Part shown: positions 183 to 16,087 of the stretch, in pieces
How positions within the stretch are numbered: position 1 is the first letter of the stretch
Layout of the letters: the number at the start of each line of letters is the position of its first letter
DNA from: DAOVGU01 sp030637775 [NCBI: bacterium]
GTDB lineage: Bacteria > Ratteibacteria > UBA8468
Reading direction: 5' to 3'
Length of the DNA: 16,135 bases
NCBI GenBank assembly: GCA_030637775.1
Contig: DAOWFY010000121.1
Location: forward strand, 1-16,135
Program-made: the position numbers and the translations under genes
Notes under the pieces: generated by a model
Databases searched by the model: none
Told to the model about the DNA's origin: nothing
What the model saw: the letters and a program-made list of their open reading frames with translations, nothing else

Positions 183-295
183 TTAACTTCTTTTTATTCT
201 TATAGGATACCTCACGCCCTAATCTTTTTCCAGATATTTTAAGACATTACCCTTTTTATACGGTTTAAAAAGTTGAGAAAATGAAAGGAAGGCGT

Positions 296-574
296 ATGGC
301 TAAAAGTAAGGTGATTGTCACGGTAGTGGGGAAGAATCGGATAGGGGTTTTATCTGAAGTAACCACTGCCATTGCAGCCCTTGGTGGTAATATTATGGAT
401 ATTAGCCAGAAGATGCTATCCGGCTATTTCAACCTGATTATGATCGTGGATATCTCAAAGGCAAAGGTGAACCTGGCCGATTTTAAGGAAAAATTGGAGA
501 AATTGGAAGACAAAAAGGGCTACAAAATCAGCGTTCAGCATGAGAAAGTCTTCCATTATATGCACCGTATTTAA
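296..574 (+). CDS. ACT domain-containing protein, UPF0237 family
   Basis: This 92-residue protein is a single ACT-type ligand-binding domain of the UPF0237 family. ACT domains usually bind amino acids and act as regulatory modules, but the role of this stand-alone family is not established. Diagnostic stretches are GKNRIGVLSEVT near residues 12-23, the NIMDISQ loop, the GYFNLIMIVDI strand, and the C-terminal VQHEKVFHYMHRI typical of the family. I chose the ATG at 296 because AAAGGAAGG (284-292) is a good ribosome binding site for it; an upstream in-frame ATG at 281 would add only MKGRR and would consume that site. The gene ends 12 nt before the UPF0210 gene, its usual partner in many bacteria and archaea, so joint function is likely. 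Confidence 0.9.
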   Translation: MAKSKVIVTVVGKNRIGVLSEVTTAIAALGGNIMDISQKMLSGYFNLIMIVDISKAKVNLADFKEKLEKLEDKKGYKISVQHEKVFHYMHRI

Positions 575-586
575 TAAGGGGAGAAA

Positions 587-1957
587 ATGGAGATAGGTTC
601 AGAAGAGATATTGGAAACCATCCGGATGGTTGAGCTACAGAACCTGGATATTAGAGCGGTAACGATATCCATAAATCTTTTAGATTGTAGCCATTCAGAT
701 ATAAAAGATTTACAGTCTAAGATAACACAAAAAATAGTAAAATATGCCAAGAGTTTGGTTAAGGTTTGCCAGGAAATTGAATCCATCTATGGCATCCCTA
801 TTGTCAATGAACGCATTGCGGTCACGCCAATTTCTCTGGTTGGGGCCAGTTGCAATGTAAAGAATTATGTCCCGATAGCAAAAACTTTGGATGAAGCGGC
901 TAAAAAGGTAGGAGTGGACTTTATCGGTGGATTTTCTGCTTTGGTAGAGAAAGGTCTTACTAAAAGCGATCTGAAACTTATTGACTCTATTCCAGAGGCC
1001 CTTGCCTCTACCGATTTTGTCTGTAGTAGCGTTAATGTTGCGGCCACAAAGGTTGGAATAAATATGGATGCGGTGATCAGGATGGGCAGGATTATCAAGG
1101 AAACGGCTGAATTAACGGCTAAAAATAATGGTATCGGCTGCGCCAAGTTAGGTGTATTTGCTAATCTTCCCGGGGATGTTCCCTTTATGCCGGGGGCTAT
1201 CCACGGAGTTGGCCAGAGCGAATGCGTTATTAATGTTGGAGTAAGTGGTCCCGGGGTGGTGAAGTCAGTTTTGGGAAAAATGGCAGATGCCAATTTAAAT
1301 GAAATGGCAGAAGTGATAAAGAAAACCTCCTTCAAAATCACCCGTATGGGAGAATTAGTTGGAAGAGAGGTAGCAGAAAAATTGAAGGTTGAGTTTGGTA
1401 GCGTTGACCTTTCGCTTGCTCCTACCACTAAAGTGGGAGATAGTATTGCTCAGATTTTAGAGTTAATGGGTCTGGAGGTCTGTGGCACCCACGGAACAAC
1501 CGCCGCATTAGCTCTTCTTACCGATGCGGTAAAGAAGGGAGGGGCAATGGCTTCTTCCTCGATAGGAGGTTTCAGCGGCGCCTTTATCCCTGTCTGTGAG
1601 GATAGAGGGATGGTTGAGGCGGTGAGAAAAGGAGCAATTGGTCTGGATAAGTTGGAGGCAATGACATCCGTTTGCGCGGTTGGTTTAGATATGGTCGTTG
1701 TTCCCGGGAATAGTTCAGAGGAAACAATCTCGGCCATTATCGCTGATGAGATGGTTATCGGGGTGATCAATAATAAAACCACGGGAGTAAGGATTATTCC
1801 CGCTCCGGGAAAAAAGGCAGGAGAAAAAGTAAAATTTGTTGGCCACAAAGGGCTTTTAGGAGAAGGGATCGTGATGCCGGTGAATAAATATGGTGCAAAG
1901 AAGTTTATTCAGCGCGGTGGAAAAATTCCTGCCCCCTTGCGAAGCTTAGGGAATTGA
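587..1957 (+). CDS. PFL-like protein, UPF0210/DUF711 family
   Basis: The 456-residue product matches UPF0210 (DUF711) in length and sequence. Members have a barrel fold related to pyruvate formate-lyase and ribonucleotide reductase, but their reaction is unknown. Visible family segments are [11 protein letters not shown] (215-225), [12 protein letters not shown] (276-287), [11 protein letters not shown] (299-309) and [18 protein letters not shown] (325-342). These glycine-rich loops would line the active site. There is no signal peptide or membrane segment, so it is cytosolic. The start at 587 has AAGGGGAG at 576-583 as ribosome binding site. The gene follows the ACT protein by 12 nt, a conserved arrangement suggesting that the ACT subunit regulates or partners this enzyme. 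Its TGA (1955-1957) ends 2 nt before the ATG of the next gene. It appears full length and intact. Confidence 0.93.
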
Positions 1958-1959
1958 AA

Positions 1960-2885
1960 ATGAACCATCGAGAAAGAGTTTTAGCCTCCTTGCAGCATAA
2001 AGAGCCGGATAGAATCCCCATAGATTTAGGGGGGATGGATTCTACCGGAATTGTGGGTATAGCCTATAACAGGCTCAAGAAATATTTAGGAATAAAAGGA
2101 GGGAGAACCCAGATTTTTGACCCAATTAATCCACCTTTATCGAGACCTTTGACTATCCCTCCTATTGGGATGAAAATTACTCAGATTTAGAAAGGAAAAC
2201 AAAACATCTTTATGAAAATACCGACTATACTTTGATGGGAAATTTTGCCCCGCACATCTTCGCTGCGGGTTAGATATTAGGAGGATTTAAGCAATTTATG
2301 GTTGACCTGATCAGCAATCAGAAAATTGCTCGATGTATTATGGAAAATTTAGTTAACACCTTTATTGAAAGATTTAACAGATATAACGCGGCTATTGGAA
2401 AGTATATTCAGATTATCAACGTTAATGATGATTTGGGTATGCAGGATGGACCCCAGATTTCGCCAGCATCATACCGAAAAATGGTCAAACCCTATCAAAA
2501 AAGGCTTTATCAACATATCAAGAAAAATTCAAACCTTTACCTTTTTCTCCATACCGATGGCTCGGTTTACGAATTCATCCCCGACTTTATTGAGATGGGA
2601 GTTGATATTCTCAACCCGGTTCAGTTTACTGCCAAGGATATGGGACTTGAAAAATTAAAAAAAGAGTTTGGTAGAGATATAAGTTTCTGGGGAGGGGGCT
2701 GCGATACGCAAAATGCTCTTCCTTCCGCTACTCCTCAGGAGGTCAAAAAACATGTAAGGGAATGCATATCTATTCTTGCCCCTGGTGGAGGGTTTGTTTT
2801 TAACCAGATACATAATATCCAGGCCGATGTTCCCCCGGAGAATATCATGGCGATGTATGAAGCGGTGAAGGAATATAGTTATTGA
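1960..2885 (+). pseudogene. Decayed uroporphyrinogen decarboxylase-like (MtaA/CmuA-type) methyltransferase gene
   Basis: The 5' part starts at ATG 1960 with MNHRERVLASLQHKEPDRIPID, the classic N-terminus of URO-D-superfamily corrinoid methyltransferase-like proteins. It runs on until TAG at 2188. From 2166 the homologous reading continues in another frame (WDENYSDLERKTKHLYENTDY), meets an in-frame TAG at 2271-2273, and then runs open to TGA at 2883-2885 with NVNDDLGMQ, FLHTDGSVYEF, FWGGGCDTQ and PPENIMAMYEAV. I see three lesions. First, a block of perhaps 60-100 codons seems missing near 2113-2130, where IFDP is joined directly to INPPLS. Second, there is a frameshift near 2160-2166. Third, there is the TAG, which falls where relatives often have Gln, so a CAG-to-TAG change is the simple explanation. 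Intact members have about 340-390 residues; about 308 codons remain. The family reads or transfers methyl groups; the substrate here is unknown. An ATG at 2298 could still yield a 195-residue C-terminal fragment. Confidence 0.8.
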
Positions 2886-2901
2886 AAAAAGAGGAAAACC
2901 T

Positions 2902-4137
2902 ATGCCTTTAGATAAGATAGAGAAATGGGTATCGGAAAGATTAGTCCAGCTTGAGGAAAAAGGCAGCCTTAAAGGTAAAGAATTGGTAATAAGAGAGATA
3001 AAGAAATCTTCAGGAACCAGAGGTTCGAGATATTTTGTGGAAGGCGAGGGTGATAAAGAGTTTATGAAGATGAACTCCAACTCTTACCTGGGGATGTCCT
3101 TAAAGAAAGAGGTAATAGAAGCGGAGAAGGAGGCGACAGAAAAATTTGGGGTAGGACCGGGAGCGGTGCGTTTCATCCACGGGACCTTTAAACCCCATGT
3201 AGAGTTAGAAAAAAGGTTAGCCGAGTTTCACCAAAGGGAAGCCTGTATGCTCTTTAGTTCGGCATACGCTGCCGTCTGCGGGATTCTCTCCCCTCTGATT
3301 TCTCCCGAGACGATAGTAATAAGTGATGAACTGAATCATAACTGTATCATTAATGGTCTTAGACTTTCTAAACCAAAGGACAAGAAAATATATGCTCATT
3401 TAAATATGAAGGAGTTGAAGAATAAGATAGAAGAATGTTTAGGAAATTGCCAACGGGTTATCATCGTCACCGATGGAGTATTCAGTATGAGAGGAGATTA
3501 CCCTGACCTTAAAGAATTGATGAATTTAGCTAAAAAATACCACCCCGAATTTAAGGAAGGTGTTTTTACCATTGTGGACGATTCCCATGGGGTAGGTGCC
3601 TTTGGAGAGAGAGGAAGAGGCACCTGTGAGGTCACCGGCGAAGATGGGGTGGATATATTAGTCTCTACTTTGGGTAAGGCATTGGGAGTAAATGGGGGGT
3701 ATGTGGTAACCAATACCAAAATCGTGGAATACCTGAGGGAAACCGCTCCCTTTTATATCTACTCTAATCCTATTACCCCCTCAGAAGCAAGCGCCGCCAT
3801 AAAAGCCCTGGAAATTCTGGATAGCGAAAAGGGCCAGAAGATGCTACGTAATTTGAAGGAAATGACCCTTTATTTTAAGGAAGGACTGATTAATCTGGGG
3901 TATGAGACGATAAGAGGAGAGCACCCTATTGTCGCACTGATAGTGCGGGATACGCAGGAGACAATAAAATTGGTCAATTACCTCAAAGAGCGGGGAATCT
4001 TAGCGGTGGGTTTGAAATACCCGGTAGTTCCCCGAGGCGATGAATGTATCAGATTCCAGATCTCCGCCGACCATACCAGAGATGATTTAGATTGTGTGCT
4101 CGGCGTTTTAGGAGCAAAAAAATGGAAGGAAAATTAG
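2902..4137 (+). CDS. PLP-dependent alpha-oxoamine synthase, glycine C-acetyltransferase (KBL)-like
   Basis: This is a 411-residue cytosolic fold-type I PLP enzyme of the alpha-oxoamine synthase family (KBL, BioF, HemA, serine palmitoyltransferase), which condenses an amino acid with an acyl-CoA. Expected residues are present: the RFIHGT segment (90-95), DELNH with His146 to stack on the cofactor, DGVFSMRGDYPDL (191-203), DDSHGVG with Asp226 and His229, the PLP-binding Lys259 in STLGKALG, and Arg384 in CIRFQISA for the substrate carboxylate. Length is normal, with an N-terminal extension of about 50 residues before the core. The LGKALG motif is closer to KBL than to serine palmitoyltransferase. 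The start at 2902 has GAGG at 2891-2894, 17 nt after the broken methyltransferase gene. Its 3' end overlaps the SDR gene by 16 nt, implying coupled synthesis. The acyl-CoA and amino acid used cannot be read from the sequence. Confidence 0.88.
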   Translation: MPLDKIEKWVSERLVQLEEKGSLKGKELVIREIKKSSGTRGSRYFVEGEGDKEFMKMNSNSYLGMSLKKEVIEAEKEATEKFGVGPGAVRFIHGTFKPHVELEKRLAEFHQREACMLFSSAYAAVCGILSPLISPETIVISDELNHNCIINGLRLSKPKDKKIYAHLNMKELKNKIEECLGNCQRVIIVTDGVFSMRGDYPDLKELMNLAKKYHPEFKEGVFTIVDDSHGVGAFGERGRGTCEVTGEDGVDILVSTLGKALGVNGGYVVTNTKIVEYLRETAPFYIYSNPITPSEASAAIKALEILDSEKGQKMLRNLKEMTLYFKEGLINLGYETIRGEHPIVALIVRDTQETIKLVNYLKERGILAVGLKYPVVPRGDECIRFQISADHTRDDLDCVLGVLGAKKWKEN

Positions 4138-4877
4138 AGGGAAAGGTAGCCATTGTCACCGGAGCGGCTCAGGGAATGGGGGAATCGGTGGCTAAACTTT
4201 TTGCTCAGGAAAGGGCTGAAGTTGTTGTCAATGATATCAATGAGGAAAAAGCAAAGAAAGTAGCGGGGGAAATTAAATCCCAGGGTAAAGAAGCGTTAGC
4301 CATCAGAGCGGATGTAAGCAACGGCAAAGAAGTTTCCCAGCTGGTAGAGAAAACTGTTGAAGAATTTGGCACGATTCATATCCTCATTAATAATGCCGGG
4401 ATTCTGAGGTCAAGCAAGGTGGATGAAATCGGTGAGGAGGAATGGAATTTGGTAATTAATGTTAACTTAAAGGGAACATTTCTTTGCTCCAAGGCGGTTC
4501 TCCCGATAATGAAGAAAAATAGGTATGGAAGGATAGTTAATTTTTCCTCCTCGGCGGGAAGAAGTGTGAGCACCTTAGGCGGCGCCCATTATACCGCGGC
4601 CAAAGCCGGAATCCTTGGCTTTACCCGACAATTGGCAAAGGAGGTAGCCGCTGATGGAATTAATGTGAATGCTGTATGCCCTGGTCTCATTGATACCGAG
4701 ATGGTGGGAGCAAACTGCCCTCCGGAGAAATTAAGGGATTACGAGAGAAGTTTTCCTATTCCTCGCTTGGGAAAACCGGAAGAGGTGGCGAGTCTGGTTC
4801 TTTTTTTAGTTTCCGATAGAGCCTCCTATATTACCGGCGCCTCCTTAGATATCAATGGTGGCGACCTGATGATTTAA
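4122..4877 (+). CDS. Short-chain dehydrogenase/reductase (FabG-like, probably NAD-dependent)
   Basis: This classical SDR has 251 residues. It has the dinucleotide motif TGAAQGMG (13-20), NNAG (90-93), Asn115 in NVNLKG, and the catalytic set Ser144, Tyr157 and Lys161 (YTAAK). It ends in the usual ITGASLDINGGDLMI. Asp38 at the end of the second strand (VVVNDIN) favours NAD(H) over NADP(H), unlike typical fatty-acid-synthesis FabG. I chose ATG 4122 because TAGGAG (4109-4114) lies 7 nt upstream and MEGKLEGKVAIVTG is a normal SDR start; in-frame codons further upstream belong to the preceding gene. The 16-nt overlap with the oxoamine synthase suggests that it acts on that enzyme's keto product or a related compound, but other hydroxy/keto substrates are possible. 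It is the last gene of the plus-strand operon, before a terminator. Confidence 0.9.
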   Translation: MEGKLEGKVAIVTGAAQGMGESVAKLFAQERAEVVVNDINEEKAKKVAGEIKSQGKEALAIRADVSNGKEVSQLVEKTVEEFGTIHILINNAGILRSSKVDEIGEEEWNLVINVNLKGTFLCSKAVLPIMKKNRYGRIVNFSSSAGRSVSTLGGAHYTAAKAGILGFTRQLAKEVAADGINVNAVCPGLIDTEMVGANCPPEKLRDYERSFPIPRLGKPEEVASLVLFLVSDRASYITGASLDINGGDLMI

Positions 4878-5198: not shown

Positions 5199-8100
5199 TC
5201 ACTCGAATATCATTTCCCACCACTCGCTATAATTCTCCCATACGCCGTATTTGCTTATTGGAATACTTGCTGAATATTCTACTCGGTCAAGATAAATTGA
5301 GCTCTCGCATCTGGCAAATGCAATCATCCATCTGTCCCCTTTTTGTGGAAAAGGCGATATATTCCTGAAAGTGAAATTTTTTAATGGAATCTTTATTTCA
5401 ATTGACCAGTATTTATCTTTGTCTGACCAGTCATTAATTGTTCCATCTACATGGAAAGCACACAAAAGTCCTTTAGCATTCCATGCTTTCCTTGTCACCA
5501 CTCTATATCCTGAGGTGTTGGGCAAGCCTCGTTTATCCAGGCCATCCCATATTGTACCCAAAGGACTAAATTCAAATTCATATATGAATCTTTTAGCTGT
5601 ATTCGGTCTTACAAATACTTCAAAAGCGTCTTCATTATATATTGGATCATCTCGTTGTGTGAGATTTCCTACAATATCCTCATCATACATCTTTGCCCCA
5701 AAATACAAATACTCATTATCCCACATAGAATATACTTTTGTTTGATACTTGGCATGTCCCAATTTCTTAGACTTAAAAAATGTCTCGGTAATCAGCTTGT
5801 CTTTCCAGATAGCATCGTTTAGCTTTCCATCAAAAATTAGTTCTCCATCTTTTCTGTGGCAGACAGATACGTTCTGTTGTTCATCTGCGTGAGTTGTGCT
5901 AACGAAGGAGACTCTAAACATTTTGGTGTCTGAACACCCGGTGGCAACATCACGCACTTCTATTTTCCAATTCCCAGTTTTGTCATTCAGTGCTAATGGA
6001 ATTATCCCTTCAGCTTTGCCCATGTCCAGATTAATGTTTCGGCAATAATGTCTTTGCATATTTCCTTCAGGGTCAAATACTTCAATTCGTATAACATGAC
6101 GGTCAGAGGTTTTCATGGTTATAGAATATAAAAGCTCTTCGCCTAATGATGCCTCTGATTTCATCTGCAGTTTTAATCCTGACACTTTCTCTGGCAGTAT
6201 AGCCCATAACCCCGCCATACCAGGCTTCAAGTTTGTTTTTATCTTGTCACTATATCCGGAAAATCTCCCGGCGCGAACGTCATAAACATATCCTATGGCC
6301 GGAAGTATTATTTGAGCTTTCTGCCTTTTTATCTTTGGAGAATGGTGTCTGAGTAAACCCACATATTTCATATTTCCATCCGTAAATATTGCCAGCTCTC
6401 CTTCATAAACTTCTCCTGTGCTTGTTGTAACATAAAATTCAGGTTTTATGCTTAATTCTTTCAATCTTTTTGCGAAAAGTGCTCTCATGGCTGAAGCATC
6501 GGTATTGCCACTCTTATATCTTGAGATATCTCTGCCTATGACCACTGCCCTTTCTCCAATGAACCTTTCCCATTTCGAATCCTCAATTGGCTTTCCATGC
6601 TCATCATAGATGCCTGGTACTATATCAGCAATAACCTTCCCACCATGTTCTACAAATGAACAAATCTGCTCTTTTTCCTGGCCGGAAAGTGCTATGGAAC
6701 AGGGAAGTATCAGCAGTCTATAATTCTCCCTCTCCAGAATACCTTGTTTCAATTGTTCATAAGAAATAAATCTATATTGATAATTTAGATCTTCCAGGAT
6801 CCTGATAAAATCATATTGGCTATCATTGGGATTGCCGTATTTTGAATAATATGTTGCTGCATGTAAACTTGGCTGGGAATACAAAATTGCTATTCCTCCT
6901 GAATCACGTCTGCATCCAAGTAGAAGTTTGCCTATCCCTGATTTTATCTCCAATGCTTCTTCGGAACTTGCCTTAAGTATTGGAAAAGGCTTGAATGAAG
7001 CAGGATTCATTGCGTCCTCAGCCTGAACGTTGCTGGTAAATGATGTAATAGTATTAAACCACCAGATGCTGTTCATTTCATGGAAAAGCACATACCATGG
7101 CTCCCAATGGGCATATTCAACAAACCTTGTTAAATGATTATACCCCCCATACCATCTGCCTGTCCTTGCTTCCTCCCTATGGAATGACCTCAATATCTCT
7201 GCCTGCAAATGGTCTGGATATATTCCCCATAAGTCTAAAACTCGGGATAACTTCCACCAGTCATACCCGGTAAAACTTGTTATGTCAAAACCCCCATCAA
7301 ATCCGACCAGAGCATCCGGATCTATGCCTTTGATTGTTTCTTTCCCTGTCTTATGAATATTTAAAAATACATTCTCCATATGCATCCTGAAATCCACCCA
7401 TCTGGCTGGCTGGTTTAGTTTTCTTGCCTCTTCTAAAGGGATAGGTTCTATCTCATCCCATGAATTATAAGCTGTATCCCATTCCCTATTTAAGGCTTCA
7501 ATGTTTTTGTAAATCCTTTTTATATACTCCCTGAAACCGTCTTTGCAACTTTTAGAAAAACATACTTCGTGGTCATTTATTGACAAATCATTCTCATCTC
7601 CCAGGGAATAAGCGACTGGCGCAAAGGGACTGGTTGCCTGTGCTATTTTTCTTAATCTTTCTTGCTGAGCTTCTATATATTTCTGATTACTCAAGCAGGA
7701 CATTCTCTCATGGCACGGTCCTTTAGTTGTCTTACCTATTGCGTAGCGGGTCATGTATGGTATTATATGAAAGCCTGCTGTTGCAGCTGCCCATGATTGC
7801 ATCCATGATGTTCTATAACCTCCATAAGAACTATCAACTCCAAGTTTATATAATTCCCTGCGTGCATAGTGCCAGAGATATTCATTGGGAAAGATCCCCC
7901 AGCACACAAAACCAAAGTCGTCTCTTGGATAAAAAACTTTCACAGGAATGAAAGTCTCAAAACGGCTTAATTTCTGCTTATTGTTATAAAGAACGACTTT
8001 AGCCTTTATCAGGTTGCTCAAAGGATGCGATAGGACAATTTCAGTTTTAGCTGTATCTCTATCCGGCAGGATATTCTCACTTATATCAGCAATAAGTCTT

Positions 8101-9377
8101 CCAAATACATCTATAAGTTGCACTCTTAAAGACATATCTTCCTTAGCTTTATTCGAAAGCGTTGCGGTTAATATCAATTTAGTGTCTTGCTCTAATGTTT
8201 TTGGACTGACATCCACCGACTTGATTGTTGGCTCTCTTTTAATTTTAAATGAAGTGGAATGCCAATTAAGGGATTTGCCTTTTGCTTTTGCTATGACATC
8301 CGCAATATACTCTCCTGCTGGCAGTTCCGGTAGTTTAAATGTCTTTTTCCTTTTTTCTTCCTGATGCACAGTCTCACCAAAAACATTACGTACCCTGAAA
8401 CTGAAGTCTACTGGTATTTTAATGCCTGAAGTCTTGATCTCAACAAAACCATGTTTAATCACACATCCTAAATCGCTATCCGGGCTTTTGCCTGCTACCC
8501 ACAAGACCGCTTTAGATGCTAAGGAGAAATAATAATCTATTTCCCACAACTTTATTTCAGGCTTATTTGGTGGCGAAGGGACAAAGAATATATTCCGGGA
8601 TTTACCACCAACACTTAAGATTGCTACTTTACCTTTACCAAGTTTTCTAAGAGATACAATCTTGTTTATTGCCTCTTGATTCGATTTGAAGTGTTTCCAT
8701 GAGCTTAACGCTGTAAAAGGAATACCTTTTCCGATTAGATCCCTTTGTGTTTGACCAATAAATGGAATATCTTTTAAAACGGCAGGGATAAAATCCGTCT
8801 GATTCCTATCCGCAAAACTAATAACCAGCCCTGTTCCTTTTTTTACTCTGTTTAATATCTTATTTTGCATATCTTCCGGAAAAGCTTCCCAAAACATTTG
8901 TCCAATAATTATAACATCGTATTGTTTATGTAAGAGCTTGTTCAGACGGTTAACTTGTTTCCCCTGTTCATAACCAACGGGAGTGCTATACCTTCCTAGT
9001 GTGCCATACCCTATCGATTTGTTACGTCCCCCCTCAAATCTCTCTCCTCCTAACCTTTTAGAATTGTAAGCACAAAAAGCATCAAATCTTATGTCTAATC
9101 TTTGCGCCAGTTCTATAGTATCCCGATGGCAGACACGAGGAGCAATTACCAATGCTCTTACCTTCCCGCGATAGTATGGCTTTGCCCACTTCGTGTGAGG
9201 AGTTTCATAAGACATATCCACTTCCGCAAATTCAGGCTCGTAAACGGATGGATGCCTTTCTATATTAGGGAAATATTCAGGCCAGTCTTTTTGTTTAACT
9301 CTAATAATGTTCTTAGAGTATGCAGAATTCACAATCAAAACCAAAAACAAAAAACAAAAGAGTAATCTTTTAGACAC
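5199..9377 (-). CDS. Exported 1392-residue GH42-like glycosidase with C-terminal CBM9-like domain
   Basis: A signal peptide (residues 1-21, likely cut after AYS) marks export. A Rossmann/class-I glutaminase-like region (about 72-300) follows, then two beta-sandwich Ig-like segments (about 305-385 and 390-475). A GH42-like barrel lies at about 485-790. Within it, SLGDEND (591-597) offers Glu595 as candidate acid/base, and IEALNREWDTAYNSWDEI (626-643) closely follows the GH42 signature. FHEMNS (765-770) gives Glu767 as a possible but untypical nucleophile. A beta-galactosidase trimerisation/glutaminase-like domain follows (about 820-945), then a beta-rich linker, then a CBM9/DOMON-like domain (about 1165-1390: DGKLNDAIW, YLYFGAKMYDED, EDAFEVFV, WSIEIKIPL). 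The start is GTG at 9377 with AAAGAGG upstream; no ATG nearby keeps the signal peptide. It lies 18 nt after the 1597-residue homologue, so the two are probably cotranscribed. Substrate unknown; retained activity is unproven. Confidence 0.85.
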   Translation of the reverse strand: MSKRLLFCFLFLVLIVNSAYSKNIIRVKQKDWPEYFPNIERHPSVYEPEFAEVDMSYETPHTKWAKPYYRGKVRALVIAPRVCHRDTIELAQRLDIRFDAFCAYNSKRLGGERFEGGRNKSIGYGTLGRYSTPVGYEQGKQVNRLNKLLHKQYDVIIIGQMFWEAFPEDMQNKILNRVKKGTGLVISFADRNQTDFIPAVLKDIPFIGQTQRDLIGKGIPFTALSSWKHFKSNQEAINKIVSLRKLGKGKVAILSVGGKSRNIFFVPSPPNKPEIKLWEIDYYFSLASKAVLWVAGKSPDSDLGCVIKHGFVEIKTSGIKIPVDFSFRVRNVFGETVHQEEKRKKTFKLPELPAGEYIADVIAKAKGKSLNWHSTSFKIKREPTIKSVDVSPKTLEQDTKLILTATLSNKAKEDMSLRVQLIDVFGRLIADISENILPDRDTAKTEIVLSHPLSNLIKAKVVLYNNKQKLSRFETFIPVKVFYPRDDFGFVCWGIFPNEYLWHYARRELYKLGVDSSYGGYRTSWMQSWAAATAGFHIIPYMTRYAIGKTTKGPCHERMSCLSNQKYIEAQQERLRKIAQATSPFAPVAYSLGDENDLSINDHEVCFSKSCKDGFREYIKRIYKNIEALNREWDTAYNSWDEIEPIPLEEARKLNQPARWVDFRMHMENVFLNIHKTGKETIKGIDPDALVGFDGGFDITSFTGYDWWKLSRVLDLWGIYPDHLQAEILRSFHREEARTGRWYGGYNHLTRFVEYAHWEPWYVLFHEMNSIWWFNTITSFTSNVQAEDAMNPASFKPFPILKASSEEALEIKSGIGKLLLGCRRDSGGIAILYSQPSLHAATYYSKYGNPNDSQYDFIRILEDLNYQYRFISYEQLKQGILERENYRLLILPCSIALSGQEKEQICSFVEHGGKVIADIVPGIYDEHGKPIEDSKWERFIGERAVVIGRDISRYKSGNTDASAMRALFAKRLKELSIKPEFYVTTSTGEVYEGELAIFTDGNMKYVGLLRHHSPKIKRQKAQIILPAIGYVYDVRAGRFSGYSDKIKTNLKPGMAGLWAILPEKVSGLKLQMKSEASLGEELLYSITMKTSDRHVIRIEVFDPEGNMQRHYCRNINLDMGKAEGIIPLALNDKTGNWKIEVRDVATGCSDTKMFRVSFVSTTHADEQQNVSVCHRKDGELIFDGKLNDAIWKDKLITETFFKSKKLGHAKYQTKVYSMWDNEYLYFGAKMYDEDIVGNLTQRDDPIYNEDAFEVFVRPNTAKRFIYEFEFSPLGTIWDGLDKRGLPNTSGYRVVTRKAWNAKGLLCAFHVDGTINDWSDKDKYWSIEIKIPLKNFTFRNISPFPQKGDRWMIAFARCESSIYLDRVEYSASIPISKYGVWENYSEWWEMIFE

Positions 9378-9395
9378 TTTTAGCCTCTTTGAGAA

Positions 9396-12300
9396 CTATT
9401 CAATCGCCATTAAAGCCTTCTGTAGTTTTTCTCTTTCCAAACGTATTTTTTCTTTATCATTTTCTCCAACCGCACTACCAAATTCTTCCAGTAAAGTAAA
9501 AGTGTCAAAGAGTTGTTCCTTTTTAGAAGGATATCTTTGCCTTAATCGCTCAAACCTCTTTTTAAAATTCTCATAAATTCTTGTATTTTCCTTTTTTGCC
9601 TGCCCTGCCAGGAAGAGTTCTTTTCTCGTGCTTAGCAAGTCTTTTCCCTGTTGGTCTAAAATAGAAACTATGATTTCATAAACACCATCAGGTAACCCTT
9701 TTGCGGAAAAGGAGAATTCTTTTTCCAAAGGTTCTTCGAAAGAGACATCATGGCTAAATTCTCCTATTTCCTTTACCATCTTTCCTTCTTTAAAAAGAGA
9801 AATCTTTCCATTCAGTCTCTTCTTCTCTAAAAAAGCGCTTCCTACTTCTACTGTAAATCGTATCTCTTTATCCTGCAAAAGAAAAGTGTTGGGTAAAGAA
9901 ATGTATAAAGTAATCCCTTCCCTGAAACTACTCACACCGGAAATTCCTTTTATCAGGAAGAGTTCTGTATGCAGGGAAAGGGCTTTCAGTGATTCTATTT
10001 TCTTTTTTGGAGTAAAAAGCTCCAGGTTGTACCGGTCGGCTCCCATCCAGATATAAACTGTTTTGACCTCATCTAAAAAAAAAGAGGTAATGTAGGCTAC
10101 TTTTCTTCCTTTATCACAACAGCAAGCCCAACCTTCTTTTGGAGTAAAACAATGATTGCTCCTACTTCTGACATAGGAAGGTGTTTCTAACCCTTCTGGA
10201 GTAGGGATAAAGAAACGATCTTCTCTGTCTGCTATCCCTCCAATACTTAACTCAGGATGCAGGCACAAAGACAGTAGTTTTGAAACGTTACCATAATTAT
10301 ATTCTTCTATGCCTAAATCTACTTTAGCCTCATTCTTCTTGATGGTAATTAGTTTCTTTAACAAAAGATCGTTAACGGCATGATCCATTTTAAGTAATAC
10401 CTTTATCTCTTTTGCGGTATCCTTTATTATTTTATAAGAGAAGGGTTGGTCGAAAAAGCTGCCTGGCCATTGACCTTCATTCTCTTCTATTCCTCCGCCA
10501 GCAAGGTGGTTTACTTTCTCGGGAAGAGTAGAATATTCTATTATCTTCCCCCCCCTCTCAGGAACTATTGTTAATCTTACCAGTCCATTTGACAAAAGCA
10601 GCTTATCACCTTCCTTCTGAAAGGAGCAAGAAGAGGAAACGGGTTCCTTTTTATTTTTTTTTATCTCTACTTCCATCCACAGAGGATACACGAATTGGAC
10701 GGAGATACATTTAACCAGGAAGGAGGTATCCTTAAAAGAAAATACATAATCTTTACCTGGCTCAACCTTCCTTTTCAATTTCTCCTTTCCCTTGCTTACC
10801 GTAAGAAAAGCTTCTCCAGTATCAACGGAGAAGGAGATTACAGTTGTTTGAAAGAAAAAACCATCTATCTCCTTTGGCTCTTCTATGCAAAGATTGCCTC
10901 TATAGGGAAGAGAAGAAGTGGCAGTGGTGGAAAAATTTGACTTTGAAACTTCCTTCACCACGACAGTAAAACGTTCTGGAGAAAAAGAAGTCTTCTTTGA
11001 AGAAAGTTTCTTCAGTTGATAGACCCTGCCGCCGGGAGAGGTCATTAAACCAGAGAAAGAGGTGTAATTACCATCAAAGGTAGAAGGAATCTCTGCCCCA
11101 ACGAGATAGTCGATAACCTTGCAGTTCCCTTTTATCTTTAACAAAAACTCATTTATAAGGTTTTTGTCTTTTGGGTAAACACAGATAAGGTATCGGCTGT
11201 CTTTATGTTCCCACTCTCTAATTATAAGGTTTTTGTCTCCACAGATATACTTGGCTCCAAGATCGATCTCTTTCATAACCTCCTTCATGATTATAGTAGA
11301 TTCCGGATACTCTATTTGATACTCCAGGCCAAAAGGTGCTCCATTAACCAACATCTTTCCTTTACCTACATGAACAGAAACTAAAGCTGGCTCACCTCCG
11401 GCATAATTTAACAGCGCCTTTCCTCTTTCTTTAGAAAAGAGCGAAGGAGCAAAAGCAAATTCAGGCTTTTTGACAAAAAAAGTATCTCCCGCTGGAAGAA
11501 AAATCTCTTTTCTTTTTACAAAGGAGGGGGCAATACCTGCTTCTTTAAGGAGAAGATTCCCAGGATGTCCGTAATTATCAAACTTGCCTGCATTTCCATC
11601 CAGAAGGAGATTGCCCCCGTTTTTTACATAATCAATCAGCGCTTTTTGCAGGTCTTCAGAAAGATATTCTGCTGCTGATACAATTAAAAGCCTGCAATTA
11701 GAAAGATCCGTACCCTCCAAAATAGCCTCCTCAGCGATTACCCTTGCTGGTTGGTAATATCGTAAGAAGAAAGAATAAAAGTTTCTTGTTGCCTGAACAT
11801 GAAGAGAAGAGTTTTCCCCTTCAATCCAATCCTGGTCATGGCAACGGGTGGTATCGGAAAACAGTATTCTTATCTCAGATTCTTCTCTCTTTCCATCCAG
11901 GATAATATGGTCAAATTTTTGAAGATCAGAGACCAGATTTTTCAGCTCCCAACCATAAAGAGTAGGCAGTCCTGCAGTATCCACGTAATTTCCTCTGAAA
12001 CTGTTTAATCGCCATACCCAGCAGTTAATACCAACTGCTCCGCCACTAACCTCTGACCATACCCCTTGAGATAACTTTCGCCTGCCTTCTAAGATATTTT
12101 TTGGTGCTCCATAGAAAAGACCCCATTCTGTGGTAAGGAACGGCTTCCCACAATTGAGGTCAAACCAGATCCATTCATTCAGCGCAGGAAGGCGACCATA
12201 AGTCCCGTCCACACCGGCTATATCCTGCATTTTGGTAATCTGGTAGAAATTTGTTCCGTAAAGAGGGCATCTCATTGAACCGGTGGAAGTGCAACGAGAA

Positions 12301-14189
12301 ACAGGTGTTTGGGAGTCATATTTCTTAAAGGTATCATAACCAAACTGAAGCACAGAAAGATACCTTTCCTCCCTGAAGTTCGTCCAATCTTCCCAGTTAC
12401 TGTGTTCAGAGATAGTAACAGGTTTCTTGGTTAAAAGTTCTATCTCTTCAAATTTCTTATGGTCTGTCTGCCAACGTTCATTTAAAGATTTAATGTTCTT
12501 ATATTTCTCTTTAAGATATACATGATATTCCTCCTTTGCCTGCTCTCCCCAGAATTTAGTCATTAATCCTCTTTCCCCAGCACTCCAGTATCGTAGTACA
12601 GGCTCATCCTTCCATTTTTCCACAAAATCTTTTATCTTTTTTTCCAGCAATTTATAGTTATATACTTTTTTTGAAGCTCCTCCAGACTTTCCTGTGCGTG
12701 GGTTTAACTTCCCTGTGGTAGGAATTATCTCCTTAAAGCAATAAGAGGGCGTAGAATAAAGATCAAACTTTATTCCGCTTTTATTCTTTTTTACTACCGG
12801 GTCATCCAAATATTTGAAAAAAAGTCTATCCTGCCATTGGGGATAGTAGACATTTGCACCTAATTCCTTCATCGTCTGGAAAAAGTCTTTCCTCAGCATA
12901 TAAAGACCCATGGGCTTGGTTATGCCGGCTTCAATAACTATCCCGCCGAGAGGACTTTTTATCTTTACTTCCTCTAGACACTTAATCTTTTTACTCTCTT
13001 TTGCTAACCCCTTCTTGATAGTTCGGAATCTTTTTACTTCCTTCTCTATTTTAATTAAAAGTTCTTTTCTTTCCTTATCCTGAACTTGAGTATCTGAACC
13101 GGAAAGCAGAAGCCTGTCTATTTTTTGTTTCTTATTCATTATATAAGAGAGAGCATCTTCGCAGGAACGCATCTTATTCTTCAATTCTCCAAATTCTTTT
13201 TCCTTTTTGTAAAATTTATAAAAGGTTAAATCTCTTAAAGGAGCATATATTTCCATGAAGAGCCCGCCAAAGCTGCTTATCTGTCTTTGAAGATTAACAA
13301 TCCTTTCGTAGTAGACAGGTTCTTCTTCCCCGGGAAGTCTCGTTTCGCAAAGTTTCAAGGAAGTATAAAGAACATCCTTGGCAAAAATAGTATTAAGTAA
13401 AGATGAGCCCAGATTCCCAAGGAGAATCAGAGTAGAACCATTGAAGTAGGCACTATGGTAGCGATAGGCGATAAAGTCGGTCGCTTCGTCATTTGGTAAG
13501 AGATAGACAGGAAAAATGATATTGGCTGCTGTCTCTATATTTTTTTCACTGGGGAAACAAGTACCATCACCAGTGTTCCAGCCCTTTGGTCCACATCGAT
13601 GGTAATTCATTTTATCTAAAAGATAACAGTTCTCATTAAAAGGTCCAACAGTAGGAGGGAGGTCTTTTAACAAGAAAGAAGGAAGGTCTGAATTTACCTT
13701 CAGGTAACAGTTAAGGCTTCTCTTCTCCCAGGGAAGATGCCTTATCTGAAATTCACTGTGCATATTTTTCCCAGTGCCATCATCTAAACGAATGCCTTTT
13801 GCCCAATTCTCTTTTTCCGGATCATATTTAATGCCATATCGGGGAAGACGACCTGTAATTACATTTCCACCTTCAGAAAGGAAATTAAGAATAGTATATG
13901 CTGCTACAAATGGAATGGAATCGCCGTTAGGTAAAATAAGTGTATCAAACCTGCTTTTTGTTAGAAATTCAGCATCCCCGATCTCTCTGGCGCCGGCAAC
14001 AGTTACATCAAGCTCAAAATCAGCTAAGGTCTCTTTATACCAGGATAAAGGTTTTGTTCCACTTCCACCTCGAAAACCGTCTTCAAAAAAAATCACAACC
14101 CTCTTGTTCTGAATAAACTCTTCACTCTGCACTAAAGATGTTCCCGAAAAAAGAAGTCCCAAACAAATCATTACCGTAATTAGTTTCAT
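9396..14189 (-). CDS. Exported 1597-residue GH42-like glycosidase with mutarotase-like domain and helical tail
   Basis: A signal peptide (1-22, cut near VQSEE) is followed by a glutaminase-like region (about 30-120, VVIFFEDG, LILPNGDS), then a highly charged helical, probably coiled-coil insert (about 325-405). A GH-A clan barrel spans about 413-760: YWSAGERG (534-541) offers Glu539 as acid/base, SLNERWQT (568-575) echoes the GH42 signature, and KPFLTTEWG (682-690) offers Glu688 as nucleophile, a convincing catalytic pair. A beta-galactosidase trimerisation-like domain follows (about 815-960). A galactose-mutarotase-like beta-sandwich spans about 1195-1420, then an Ig-like segment to about 1530, then a charged helical tail (1532-1597). 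ATG 14189 has AGGAGG (14196-14201) 6 nt upstream. It stops with TAG 18 nt before the 1392-residue protein. It likely cleaves a galactoside or related glycan outside the cytoplasm; the exact substrate is not visible. Confidence 0.87.
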   Translation of the reverse strand: MKLITVMICLGLLFSGTSLVQSEEFIQNKRVVIFFEDGFRGGSGTKPLSWYKETLADFELDVTVAGAREIGDAEFLTKSRFDTLILPNGDSIPFVAAYTILNFLSEGGNVITGRLPRYGIKYDPEKENWAKGIRLDDGTGKNMHSEFQIRHLPWEKRSLNCYLKVNSDLPSFLLKDLPPTVGPFNENCYLLDKMNYHRCGPKGWNTGDGTCFPSEKNIETAANIIFPVYLLPNDEATDFIAYRYHSAYFNGSTLILLGNLGSSLLNTIFAKDVLYTSLKLCETRLPGEEEPVYYERIVNLQRQISSFGGLFMEIYAPLRDLTFYKFYKKEKEFGELKNKMRSCEDALSYIMNKKQKIDRLLLSGSDTQVQDKERKELLIKIEKEVKRFRTIKKGLAKESKKIKCLEEVKIKSPLGGIVIEAGITKPMGLYMLRKDFFQTMKELGANVYYPQWQDRLFFKYLDDPVVKKNKSGIKFDLYSTPSYCFKEIIPTTGKLNPRTGKSGGASKKVYNYKLLEKKIKDFVEKWKDEPVLRYWSAGERGLMTKFWGEQAKEEYHVYLKEKYKNIKSLNERWQTDHKKFEEIELLTKKPVTISEHSNWEDWTNFREERYLSVLQFGYDTFKKYDSQTPVSRCTSTGSMRCPLYGTNFYQITKMQDIAGVDGTYGRLPALNEWIWFDLNCGKPFLTTEWGLFYGAPKNILEGRRKLSQGVWSEVSGGAVGINCWVWRLNSFRGNYVDTAGLPTLYGWELKNLVSDLQKFDHIILDGKREESEIRILFSDTTRCHDQDWIEGENSSLHVQATRNFYSFFLRYYQPARVIAEEAILEGTDLSNCRLLIVSAAEYLSEDLQKALIDYVKNGGNLLLDGNAGKFDNYGHPGNLLLKEAGIAPSFVKRKEIFLPAGDTFFVKKPEFAFAPSLFSKERGKALLNYAGGEPALVSVHVGKGKMLVNGAPFGLEYQIEYPESTIIMKEVMKEIDLGAKYICGDKNLIIREWEHKDSRYLICVYPKDKNLINEFLLKIKGNCKVIDYLVGAEIPSTFDGNYTSFSGLMTSPGGRVYQLKKLSSKKTSFSPERFTVVVKEVSKSNFSTTATSSLPYRGNLCIEEPKEIDGFFFQTTVISFSVDTGEAFLTVSKGKEKLKRKVEPGKDYVFSFKDTSFLVKCISVQFVYPLWMEVEIKKNKKEPVSSSCSFQKEGDKLLLSNGLVRLTIVPERGGKIIEYSTLPEKVNHLAGGGIEENEGQWPGSFFDQPFSYKIIKDTAKEIKVLLKMDHAVNDLLLKKLITIKKNEAKVDLGIEEYNYGNVSKLLSLCLHPELSIGGIADREDRFFIPTPEGLETPSYVRSRSNHCFTPKEGWACCCDKGRKVAYITSFFLDEVKTVYIWMGADRYNLELFTPKKKIESLKALSLHTELFLIKGISGVSSFREGITLYISLPNTFLLQDKEIRFTVEVGSAFLEKKRLNGKISLFKEGKMVKEIGEFSHDVSFEEPLEKEFSFSAKGLPDGVYEIIVSILDQQGKDLLSTRKELFLAGQAKKENTRIYENFKKRFERLRQRYPSKKEQLFDTFTLLEEFGSAVGENDKEKIRLEREKLQKALMAIE

Positions 14190-14378: not shown

Positions 14379-15326
14379 TTAAAAAATCTGATTCTGCGAA
14401 GAAAGTTCTTCCTTGGTCGCCTTTATAAAAGAGGATATTTTACTCTCCTCCTCTCCTTTGAGGATATATCCTTTTTTCCTTATTCCAGCTACCTGTGCCA
14501 CAAAAGAACTTACTTTTTTCTCAAGCTCTTTTTTCTTCTCTTCGTCTTCAACAGAATTTAGATTTTTGGATATCTCTCTTAGAGAATTCTCCCAGTAAGT
14601 AAGTTTCCTTTCCATTCTCTCCTTAACCGGAGCCCATCTTCTGATTGTTTCTTCTTTAAAAGCCTCTTCTGTAGGAACTTGTCCCTCTATTTTGATGTCA
14701 TCAACATAGATAACTGCTCTACCTCTTCCCCTAAGATGTAAGTAGATACCAGGTACATAGCCGCTAATATTATCCCCTCCTGCTCCCCAGATACGCTTTG
14801 CCAAGGCTGGAGCTGACGTCAGTTTAACCAGGTCTCCGCTAAACAGCTTCCATTTACCATTCGTTGTGCGATACGCCTCCCCATACTTTGAAATAACCCT
14901 GTTGCCGCCGTGCCCGATAGGAGAAAAATAAATTATTCTTCCTAACCCTGCTTTACAATTAGTGGTTTCTTCCCCAATAAGTAAATGTCCGGAAAAATTA
15001 ATAGGGTCTTTCCCAATAACCGGTATCCTCTTTGGCAGTGGAATCTGCCAGTAGAAGTAAGAGCCTTTCTCAAAGGTAACATCTAACTTGAACGATTTCT
15101 TGCCTGAGTGAACTTTCTCTTCGGTTAAACCTTTGAAGTTCACTGTATATTCTCCATTGCTGCACCAGAACTTTACTGGATCAGTCTCTTCAAACCCCTG
15201 AGTGTAGTGATAGAGTTCTGTATCTGATTTCTCCTCTTCACTCATCTCTATCTGCGCTGCTTTCAACCCGGACCCAATTACCAAAATACCTGCCACTGCT
15301 AATAAAACAACCTTTCGTTTAAGCAT
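14379..15326 (-). CDS. Exported carbohydrate-binding-like protein with helical C-terminal tail
   Basis: The 315-residue product has a signal peptide (1-24, cut near LKAAQ). A jelly-roll carbohydrate-binding-like domain follows, roughly 40-215. It opens with GFEETDPVKFW, has KVHSGKKSFKLDV in an early strand, and closes with AVIYVDDIKIEG, the typical last strand of CBM4/9/22-like modules. Residues 218-315 are charged and almost wholly helical, with heptad-like Glu/Lys patterns that suggest a coiled coil. No catalytic motif is seen. ATG 15326 has GGAGGAGG 6 nt upstream. The downstream neighbour is the 1597-residue glycosidase-like protein, which also ends in a charged helical tail, so this small protein could dock to it or present glycan to it; that is an inference. 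Exact CBM family unassigned. Confidence 0.75.
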   Translation of the reverse strand: MLKRKVVLLAVAGILVIGSGLKAAQIEMSEEEKSDTELYHYTQGFEETDPVKFWCSNGEYTVNFKGLTEEKVHSGKKSFKLDVTFEKGSYFYWQIPLPKRIPVIGKDPINFSGHLLIGEETTNCKAGLGRIIYFSPIGHGGNRVISKYGEAYRTTNGKWKLFSGDLVKLTSAPALAKRIWGAGGDNISGYVPGIYLHLRGRGRAVIYVDDIKIEGQVPTEEAFKEETIRRWAPVKERMERKLTYWENSLREISKNLNSVEDEEKKKELEKKVSSFVAQVAGIRKKGYILKGEEESKISSFIKATKEELSSQNQIF

Positions 15327-15442: not shown

Positions 15443-16087
15443 CTAATCGCCAGCAGCTCTGGTAAAATTGCCCAGTGTTAGGTCCTCTGGCTTGTGGCTT
15501 TTTACATGAAGATCACAGAAAAGGTAATTAGCACTACCAGAGTGATATCCGGCACAGTTTGCATATCCCACGGCTGAATTCGAATCCTTATCGTTGTGCT
15601 TGTAGTGGAATTCAAGCAAGAGAACGGTATTGGAGGGATCGCGCAGGCTGGCGAATCTGACACTGCCTGGACCATGGGTGCCATATTTGTGCCAACTGAC
15701 TCCGGTGTCACTTTCATACGAATTCCCTGCATTTATACTGTAAGAGCGCGTGCCTACAGTTTTGTCAGTTGGGCATTTGAAGGGACCCATTTTAGAGGGG
15801 TATGTTACATTCAAACTGCTGTACAAATGCTGATCCCACGACTTATAGCTCGTATTATGTGCAACTGGAAGATACCCATCCCACTCATCAGCATACATCA
15901 TCAGCGCCAAGCCTAACTGCTTGAGGTTACTCATACAGACTGCCCTTCTTGCTCTTTCTCTTGCTTGAGAAAGAGCAGGTAATAGCATCGCCGCCAGAAT
16001 GGCAATGATGGCGATTACCACTAAAAGTTCGATTAAAGTAAACGATTTTCGGTTTCGCAAACCCTTCTTTATTCTTTTAGTTTTCAT
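15443..16087 (-). CDS. Type II secretion/pilin-like pseudopilin with H-X9-D signature
   Basis: The 214-residue product has a class III prepilin signal: a basic leader ([15 protein letters not shown]), then [20 protein letters not shown], with Phe16 as +1 and the conserved Glu20 at +5. The residue before the cleavage site is Ser rather than the usual Gly, which is frequent in this protein class. Residues 37-70 ([27 protein letters not shown]) continue the N-terminal helix. Near the C-terminus, His182 is followed nine residues later by Asp192 ([15 protein letters not shown]), matching the H-X9-DG motif except that Gly is replaced by Leu. Such proteins are often present in many copies in Planctomycetota, Lentisphaerota and related phyla. 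ATG 16087 has GGAGG 9-10 nt upstream plus an AAGGA closer in. A terminator-like hairpin follows. It may help assemble a secretion or surface fibre serving the exported glycan proteins, or it may be independent of them. Confidence 0.88.

Follow-up and report, generated by a model that had tools for sequence, protein, structure and literature searches.

We analysed a window of 16,135 nt, the whole of contig C23; the genome, from a member of the Ratteibacteria, is fragmentary (1.4 Mb, 83.5% complete). Two neighbouring genes, A and B, encode exported-looking proteins that resemble glycoside hydrolase (GH) family 42 enzymes. They end a four-gene minus-strand row, pseudopilin – C – B – A, with gaps of 116 nt (pseudopilin/C), 189 nt (C/B) and 18 nt (B/A, positions 9378–9395) (Table 1). 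A preliminary description of this DNA had presented A and B as exported neighbours 18 nt apart; both minus-strand open reading frames (ORFs) are confirmed, and both N-termini are hydrophobic and signal-like as judged by eye. That description mentioned neither the four-gene row nor the loss of the clan GH-A nucleophile from A. Promoter and terminator scans of the row gave no more sites than shuffled sequence, so its status as an operon is judged by spacing alone.

Genes A and B belong to separate, divergent branches of the GH42-like superfamily of clan GH-A. Where the two align, in the trimerisation domain and the second half of the barrel, they are 20% identical. In aligned family members, A keeps the acid/base residue and carries Asp for the canonical Asn before it, and no acid is conserved where the nucleophile would sit.

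Table 1. Positions in the window of the genes of the row and of the domains and active-site residues of A and B.
Feature	Positions	Strand	Description and basis
Gene A	5199..9377	(-)	1392 aa, GTG start; exported-looking GH42-like protein without the GH-A nucleophile
A N-terminal alpha/beta domain, ~70-300	8478..9170	(-)	secondary structure of model; fold label not established
A beta-sandwich region, ~300-480	7938..8480	(-)	secondary structure of model
A (beta/alpha)8 barrel, ~481-820	6918..7937	(-)	superposition on GH42 5xb7; limits approximate
A Asp594-Glu595 dyad (GDEN), end of strand 4	7593..7598	(-)	family conservation; alignment to canonical GH42
A strand 7 and its end, 738-746 (RTGRWYGGY), place of GH42 nucleophile	7140..7166	(-)	column counts
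A trimerisation-like domain, ~824-1000, with D918	6378..6908	(-)	PF08532 below cut-off; structural superposition
A weak MG2-like sandwich, 1088-1156	5910..6116	(-)	Pfam MG2 13.6 bits, far under cut-off; strands of model
A C-terminal CBM9 module, ~1170-1392	5202..5870	(-)	PF06452 over cut-off
Gene B	9396..14189	(-)	1597 aa; exported-looking GH42-like enzyme
B (beta/alpha)8 barrel, ~430-790	11820..12902	(-)	Pfam GH42 at 508-661; model; limits approximate
B acid/base candidate E539	12573..12575	(-)	Glu in 8/8 aligned B homologues
B nucleophile candidate E688 (TTEW)	12126..12128	(-)	Glu in 7/7 B homologues reaching it
B trimerisation-like domain, ~797-1000	11190..11801	(-)	PF08532 and PF22369 over cut-off
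B galactose-mutarotase-like beta-sandwich, 1187-1415	9945..10631	(-)	model match to GalM 4bze
B C-terminal helical tail, 1529-1596	9402..9605	(-)	three helices in model
Gene C	14379..15326	(-)	315 aa, exported-looking; stand-alone N-terminal module of GH123-like enzymes plus helical tail
Pseudopilin-like protein	15443..16087	(-)	214 aa, DUF1559 (PF07596), prepilin N-terminal motif; first gene of the row

Fold and active site of A

Both proteins exceed the Pfam cut-off of 21 bits for GH42 (PF02449), A with 48.2 bits at residues 550–722 and B with 51.0 bits, and both carry the LN.xW signature (ALNREW in A, SLNERW in B), in agreement with the GH42-like barrels proposed earlier. We modelled residues 23–1165 of A with AlphaFold2 from an input of 34 family members (mean pLDDT 85.8, pTM 0.88). 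The core of the model (model residues 465–1041, corresponding to A 487–1063) superposes on the GH42 structure 5xb7 with Z 25.4 and a root-mean-square deviation (rmsd) of 3.1 over 536 aligned residues; Z is 24.9 for 3tts (GH42), 22.8 for GH164 and 19.8 for GH167. The superposition on GH42 chains runs through the trimerisation domain, for which A scores 18.4 bits with PF08532 (GH42M), under the cut-off of 25.8. Pfam and the model together thus place a GH42-like barrel and a trimerisation domain in A. The CBM9-like C-terminus of A is recognised by PF06452 (CBM9_1; 31.2 bits, cut-off 23.4).

The glutaminase-like label once given to the N-termini of A and B could not be confirmed. The N-terminus of A has no Pfam match and that of B none over cut-off. 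A profile of the N-terminal domain of A found no solved relative in the PDB (best E 0.62; the fold was not searched alone), so the label is unproven for A. A GATase assignment was likewise abandoned, no support for it having been found.

The catalytic residues of A were read from family alignments. In a first alignment of 35 barrel-bearing proteins of the window's phylum, A of the window included, D594 and E595 are each present in 34/35, and the end of strand 7 has no conserved Glu. Among 47 A proteins from named loci, a set that partly overlaps with the 35, position 594 is Asp in 41 and Glu in four of the 46 with a residue there, position 595 is Glu in 43/46, and Y746 is found in 40/42. The 91 non-redundant A members give the same picture: D594 in 83/90 (Glu in five more), E595 in 85/90, R664 in 84/91, Y746 in 81/89 and W761 in 88/89.

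The place of the nucleophile corresponds to column 741, a register set by HMMER against 9ta3 and by alignment with B, in which B E688-W falls on A R741-W742. This column is acidic in 4/87 A members; it is Arg in the A of the window and is filled elsewhere by residues such as Gly (29 of 87), Gln (9), Ser (8) and Ala (8). Any Asp or Glu within the nine residues ending at Y746 occurs in 6/81 members. As canonical references we used three GH42 proteins (L117–L119) with DNE and [ML]EQQ motifs, each from a different genome of the named-contig set. The A profile matches them with a probability of 99.8 and E 9e-30 (75/81 A sequences used); E595 aligns with the acid/base Glu of DNE, and the MEQQ segment that bears the nucleophile lies opposite a gap.

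Just four of the well-filled columns (594, 595, 662 and 918) are acidic in >90% of A members. D662 has a counterpart in one canonical GH42, as read from the alignment; D918 lies in the trimerisation domain and is Asp in 84/88. The residue before the acid/base is Asn in 7/9 other GH42-like proteins that have a residue there and Asp in 79/85 A members, and D594 thus marks the A family. In the model, strand 4 spans residues 590–594 and strand 7 residues 738–743. Measured against GH42, A has the acid/base Glu on strand 4 and lacks the nucleophile Glu on strand 7. Pfam labels A a GH42 beta-galactosidase because it passes the cut-off, although A cannot work by the known GH42 mechanism; since A lacks this defining feature, we do not file it under GH42.

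In three A proteins from Hydrogenedentota (L085, L088 and L101), Gly replaces E595 and the strand-7 Tyr motif is absent; these are possibly non-catalytic descendants.

Gene B and its relatives

For B we modelled residues 398–1597 from eight sequences. The model is weaker than that of A (pLDDT 71.5, pTM 0.59) and matches GH42 and GH164 structures at Z ~21. PF08532 (28.3 bits, cut-off 25.8) and PF22369 (GLMA_2nd; 36.3 bits, cut-off 27.7) detect the trimerisation-like domain directly, so that this part of the preliminary description rests on Pfam for B and on superposition for A. Residues 1187–1415 match the galactose mutarotase GalM 4bze (VIA-align Z 20.9, rmsd 2.6, 222 aligned residues, 14% identity); with the helical tail that follows, the C-terminus of B is as described earlier.

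B retains candidates for both catalytic acids. E688 was read from one alignment of B homologues; in the larger tree alignment L025 is out of register there. The residue before E539 varies over the eight homologues (G in the window, then R, Q, H, E, D, S and N), hence B lacks the Asn-Glu motif of clan GH-A. With both glutamates kept, B should be an ordinary retaining glycosidase. With E539 and E688 in B and no nucleophile in A, the two neighbours are mechanistically unlike. Profile matches of B are nearly equal for GH42 (54.6 bits), GH167 (9whd, 50.2) and an Ignavibacterium beta-1,2-glucosyltransferase (7vkx, 45.7), and we therefore assign it to no family. On a hidden Markov model (HMM) of the three canonical GH42 proteins, B scores 29.2 bits and those proteins themselves ~1130–1147. 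The nine-protein B set, which contained the weak GH42-like matches L135 and L136, is not one clade in the tree. Two B homologues from other genomes (L134 and L140) have an extra N-terminal region of LamG-type appearance, as judged by eye.

Distribution and genomic neighbours

Across the 35 genomes of the window's phylum, a search with A (E up to 1e-20) matches 27, 16 with the barrel and 11 with CBM9 only, a split taken from the listed query ranges. A scan of contigs from named genomes yielded 48 A-type loci. By the titles of the draft-genome records, which may be wrong, these belong to Victivallaceae and other Lentisphaerae, Verrucomicrobia, Kiritimatiellae, Armatimonadota, Hydrogenedentota, Planctomycetes, Omnitrophota and others. 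An A-core HMM recovers 101 member ORFs, of which three score 180–339 bits and the others at least 347, and all remaining collected ORFs score at most 125 bits; removal of duplicates leaves 91 members, mostly from Planctomycetes–Verrucomicrobia–Chlamydiae (PVC)-type phyla and Armatimonadota.

The A sequences, 85 of the 104 in a FastTree phylogeny rooted on the canonical GH42 proteins, form one clade (support 0.987, stem length 0.41), and A of the window groups with L147, L148 and L149 (support 1.0). A single clade and clean HMM separation make the possibly undescribed subfamily of the preliminary description a fair suggestion. Judged by these comparisons, A looks more like a family of its own than a subfamily, and very probably it is a distinct GH42-like family without the GH-A nucleophile. 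No description of the A family was found in the open-licence PMC literature, judged by title and start of abstract. The family is a large one: nine genomes picked for their A-family loci contain 6 to 40 matches each to the GH42 model (E up to 1e-5), not all sorted into A and not-A; G053 has 40, G040 29 and G036 27, mostly giant ORFs among the matches listed. A GH42-like protein outside the A family, L124 of G035, has a QDE motif at the acid/base position.

The preliminary description also suggested that A and B form a complementary pair acting on one glycan, a suggestion for which the support is weak. Among the genomes searched, A and B were adjacent in this window only. B is found in 3/35 genomes of the phylum at E up to 1e-20: the window's own, G032 (54% identity) and G021 (a 24% partial match). 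G032, of the same genus and 93% complete, has the order pseudopilin – C – B – C' plus a second B truncated at the edge of its contig; a search with A at E up to 1e-20 finds nothing in it. Among the 22 genomes behind the named A loci, B matches four at E up to 1e-10, two of them over a long range (G053, 33% over residues 28–1576, and G036, 29%). In 288 sampled genomes of the phylum of G053, with two candidates scored per genome in both searches, B occurs in three at E up to 1e-30 (G053, G127 with 40%, and G305) and A in nine at E up to 1e-60, only G127 (48% over residues 3–1155) at the level of an orthologue. In G127 and G036, an A orthologue and a B homologue are both present but lie on separate contigs; A occurs without B in G035, B without an A match in G305, and B with only distant A-family members in G053.

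Two of the three outside genomes with an A orthologue thus carry B; against a frequency of 3/288 for B, the chance is ~3e-4, calculated by hand for genomes that were not independently drawn. G127 was itself found through B, and genomes rich in carbohydrate-active enzymes may hold everything. Co-occurrence of A and B is therefore suggestive at the level of the genome, and their physical linkage is not conserved: we reject the pair as a conserved adjacent unit and keep it as a weak genome-level co-occurrence. The different C-termini do not by themselves show complementarity, because the CBM9 module of A is a separate gene in genomes of its orthologues (L149, L150 and L151; ORFs of 253–292 aa, 56–64% identity). 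This gene adjoins A in L149 (64%) and lies elsewhere in G036 and G127 (56–57%). The first same-strand downstream gene encodes a CBM9 protein in 17/63 A-family cases, against 45/943 ORFs of the same, partly redundant loci.

The first gene of the row scores above cut-off with PF07596 (44.5 bits) and PF07963 (35.3 bits), and PF07596 has 10 matches in the whole 1.4 Mb genome of the window. Of 65 A-family genes with a same-strand gene upstream, 24 have a pseudopilin, identified by motif, among the first four such genes. With 61 pseudopilins counted among the 943 ORFs of these loci, the association in part reflects their general richness in pseudopilins. The nearest published hint found for the link comes from a Verrucomicrobiota isolate, in which the genes over-expressed on alginate include one for a pseudopilin (PMC13274419).

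Gene C has no Pfam family over cut-off, and an orthologue lies upstream of B in G032. Its HMM matches the N-termini of GH123-like proteins of 873–902 aa (L047, L153 and, twice, L156) that carry a YGxDEA-type motif, MGRDEA in L047. At E up to 0.01, a profile of these proteins, a 1056-aa protein of L149 and the C proteins matches nine PDB sequences, of which seven bear the name beta-N-acetylgalactosaminidase and two are called 'glycoside hydrolase'. In G032, C' (L045:122-1249) keeps the start of a GH123-type domain (23.6 bits) and then stops; gene C thus looks like a cut-down GH123-like enzyme. Genes for GH123-like proteins lie no more than 5 kb from A-family genes in L047, L153 and, twice, L156; in L149, a more distant relative lies no more than 1 kb from an A-family gene.

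On the plus strand, positions 281–4877 run towards the A/B row with genes for an ACT domain protein, a DUF711 protein, a URO-D-type methyltransferase, a KBL/BioF-like aminotransferase and a short-chain dehydrogenase. The URO-D-type gene (1954–2885) is apparently broken by a frameshift, decay or an assembly error. Its pieces are a 195-aa ORF that spans only positions 169–346 of the PF01208 profile and a 78-aa ORF without a Pfam match, which we take to be the URO-D-like start.

Proposed catalytic mechanism of A and known systems

We tentatively propose that A hydrolyses beta-N-acetylhexosaminides by substrate-assisted catalysis, a reading that is possible but short of probable. In such a reaction the leaving group would receive its proton from E595, and the 2-acetamido group, held by D594, would attack C1 through its carbonyl to give an oxazoline. 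The emptied nucleophile site would give room for the 2-acetamido group, and Y746 and W742/W761 are likely pocket residues. In clan GH-A, the Asn before the acid/base contacts O2 of the sugar. GH20 enzymes share an Asp-Glu dyad without an enzymic nucleophile, and the strand position of the dyad is that seen in GH20 and GH123. A has its dyad at the end of strand 4, as in substrate-assisted N-acetylhexosaminidases, and no enzymic nucleophile at the GH42 place, with D918 of another subunit as a possible alternative source. PMC11087588 describes the DE motif of GH123-type enzymes: its Glu acts as acid/base, its Asp stabilises the 2-acetamido group, and mutation of this Asp to Asn or Glu leaves little or no activity. 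The row would then export enzymes for a polysaccharide containing amino sugars, with the CBM9 module of A and the C protein binding it.

Several observations weigh against this proposal. Some A members break the dyad or the Tyr motif, with Gly at 595 in three and Asp in two; L032 (8909-13165) has a Glu one column off the nucleophile column, and a few members have Asp nearby. Y746 is also Tyr in 7/8 B-set proteins with a residue there, and D918 could serve the active site of a neighbouring subunit. The nine PDB matches of the GH123-like profile lie on flanking domains and not across the DE motif. PF22680, the GH123 N-terminal family, is common (33 hits in G036, 18 in G035, 12 in G127); near A it is only ~twofold above a rough hand estimate, which proves little, and there are no hits in the genome of the window. 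The A orthologue L147 has a GntR-type regulator and a GH130-type gene next to it, and the latter may point to mannosides rather than amino sugars. As GH123-like proteins are common in several genomes, the context of A lends weak support to an amino-sugar substrate, and this high background led us to give up the GH123-like neighbours as strong proof of it.

Since the Tyr is common to the B set beside a normal nucleophile, Y746 is probably inherited and not a nucleophile replacement. A sialidase-like nucleophilic role for Y746 was accordingly dropped, the better register also placing the old nucleophile at column 741. D794 was discarded as general base; the position is Ser in the A of the window.

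Other mechanisms must be weighed against substrate assistance. An inverting hydrolase, in which E595 would be the general acid and D594, residue 694 or D794 would activate a water in the emptied nucleophile site, is unlikely: the mostly small or neutral residues of column 741 could admit water, and positions 694 (strand 5, E/D) and 794 are acidic in 68% and 80% of members, but no strand end bears a near-invariant second acid, Ser replaces 794 in the window, and D594 adjoins E595 where the clan's Asn faces the 2-substituent. We consider it rather improbable that A is a retaining enzyme with a borrowed nucleophile, most likely D918 from the trimerisation domain of a neighbouring subunit, since we know of no clan GH-A enzyme with a nucleophile from that domain and D918, which follows a GG-x-x-x-A turn, is maybe structural. 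On the other side stand the strong conservation of D918 and the trimers that its domain forms in GH42 and GH164 (PMC7105311).

Loss of the nucleophile is a classic sign of a dead glycosidase, a CBM9 module is fused or adjacent, and the few members with Gly or Asp at 595 have lost the acid/base too; A might thus descend from a GH42 enzyme and now serve, without catalysis, as a sugar-binding or scaffold protein. Decay would not keep the dyad, though, and D594 and E595 are among the most conserved acids across several phyla (by record titles), which makes this a doubtful reading. A precedent for a GH42-like enzyme working without a nucleophile is GH112, whose phosphate site lies near the GH42 nucleophile position (PMC8106489). 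A phosphorylase of this kind, with phosphate in place of the nucleophile, is nevertheless very unlikely for an exported-looking protein, as phosphate would be scarce outside and the sugar phosphates would be lost; the lacto-N-biose phosphorylase family is also absent from the Pfam matches of A at E up to 1. That A and B are ordinary GH42 beta-galactosidases working as a pair is hardly tenable: both exceed the Pfam GH42 cut-off, but A has no nucleophile, B scores far below the canonical proteins on their own HMM, and the adjacency of the two is not conserved.

If substrate-assisted catalysis is right, A would show that a catalytic mechanism can switch inside a superfamily, and uncultured lineages of the PVC type and of Armatimonadota would carry such an enzyme in many copies. 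The broader idea that A founds a new GH family, in which the retaining machinery of clan GH-A was rebuilt for substrate assistance by discarding the nucleophile and changing the adjacent Asn to Asp, and that amino-sugar polymers are a major food of these lineages, is more speculative still. The Asp-Glu barrels offer a test of whether a few changes turn a retaining clan GH-A barrel to substrate-assisted catalysis, and their substrates, once known, would reveal the diet of many uncultured bacteria.

Among known systems, GH123 resembles A in its Asp-Glu dyad and absence of an enzymic nucleophile (PMC11087588). The likeness to GH20 and GH123 is one of mechanism only, with no sequence match found. 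At E up to 1, Pfam gives A no match to GH123, GH20 or GH112 (lacto-N-biose phosphorylase), and none of the 37 solved structures that the A profile matches at E up to 0.1 has a molecule name of these families. They are also missing from the 50 VIA rows listed for A, a list that is no search and whose silence is uninformative. GH112 shares the GH42-like architecture and has a phosphate site where GH42 has its nucleophile (PMC8106489); it differs from exported-looking A in being a phosphorylase. GH148 shows local GH42-like similarity. Its member EngU, with 905 residues and a signal peptide, has both catalytic Glu residues (INNEN and VTEYN) and is inactivated by alanine at either one (PMC5725463); nothing in A corresponds to the second. 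The GH164 beta-mannosidase shares with A the GH42-like fold and the trimerisation domain, and differs in being a retaining enzyme with Glu-160 and Glu-297 (PMC7105311).

B is about as close to GH167 (9whd) and the Ignavibacterium glucosyltransferase (7vkx), which is presumably a GH35 enzyme, as to GH42; the family labels of PDB entries are taken from their titles. The GH42 beta-galactosidases share with A and B the barrel, the trimerisation domain, the order of the core, the acid/base Glu on strand 4 and a PF02449 match over cut-off. A departs from them by its missing strand-7 nucleophile and by Asp in place of Asn before the acid/base; both A and B are about twice as large, with extra N- and C-terminal domains.

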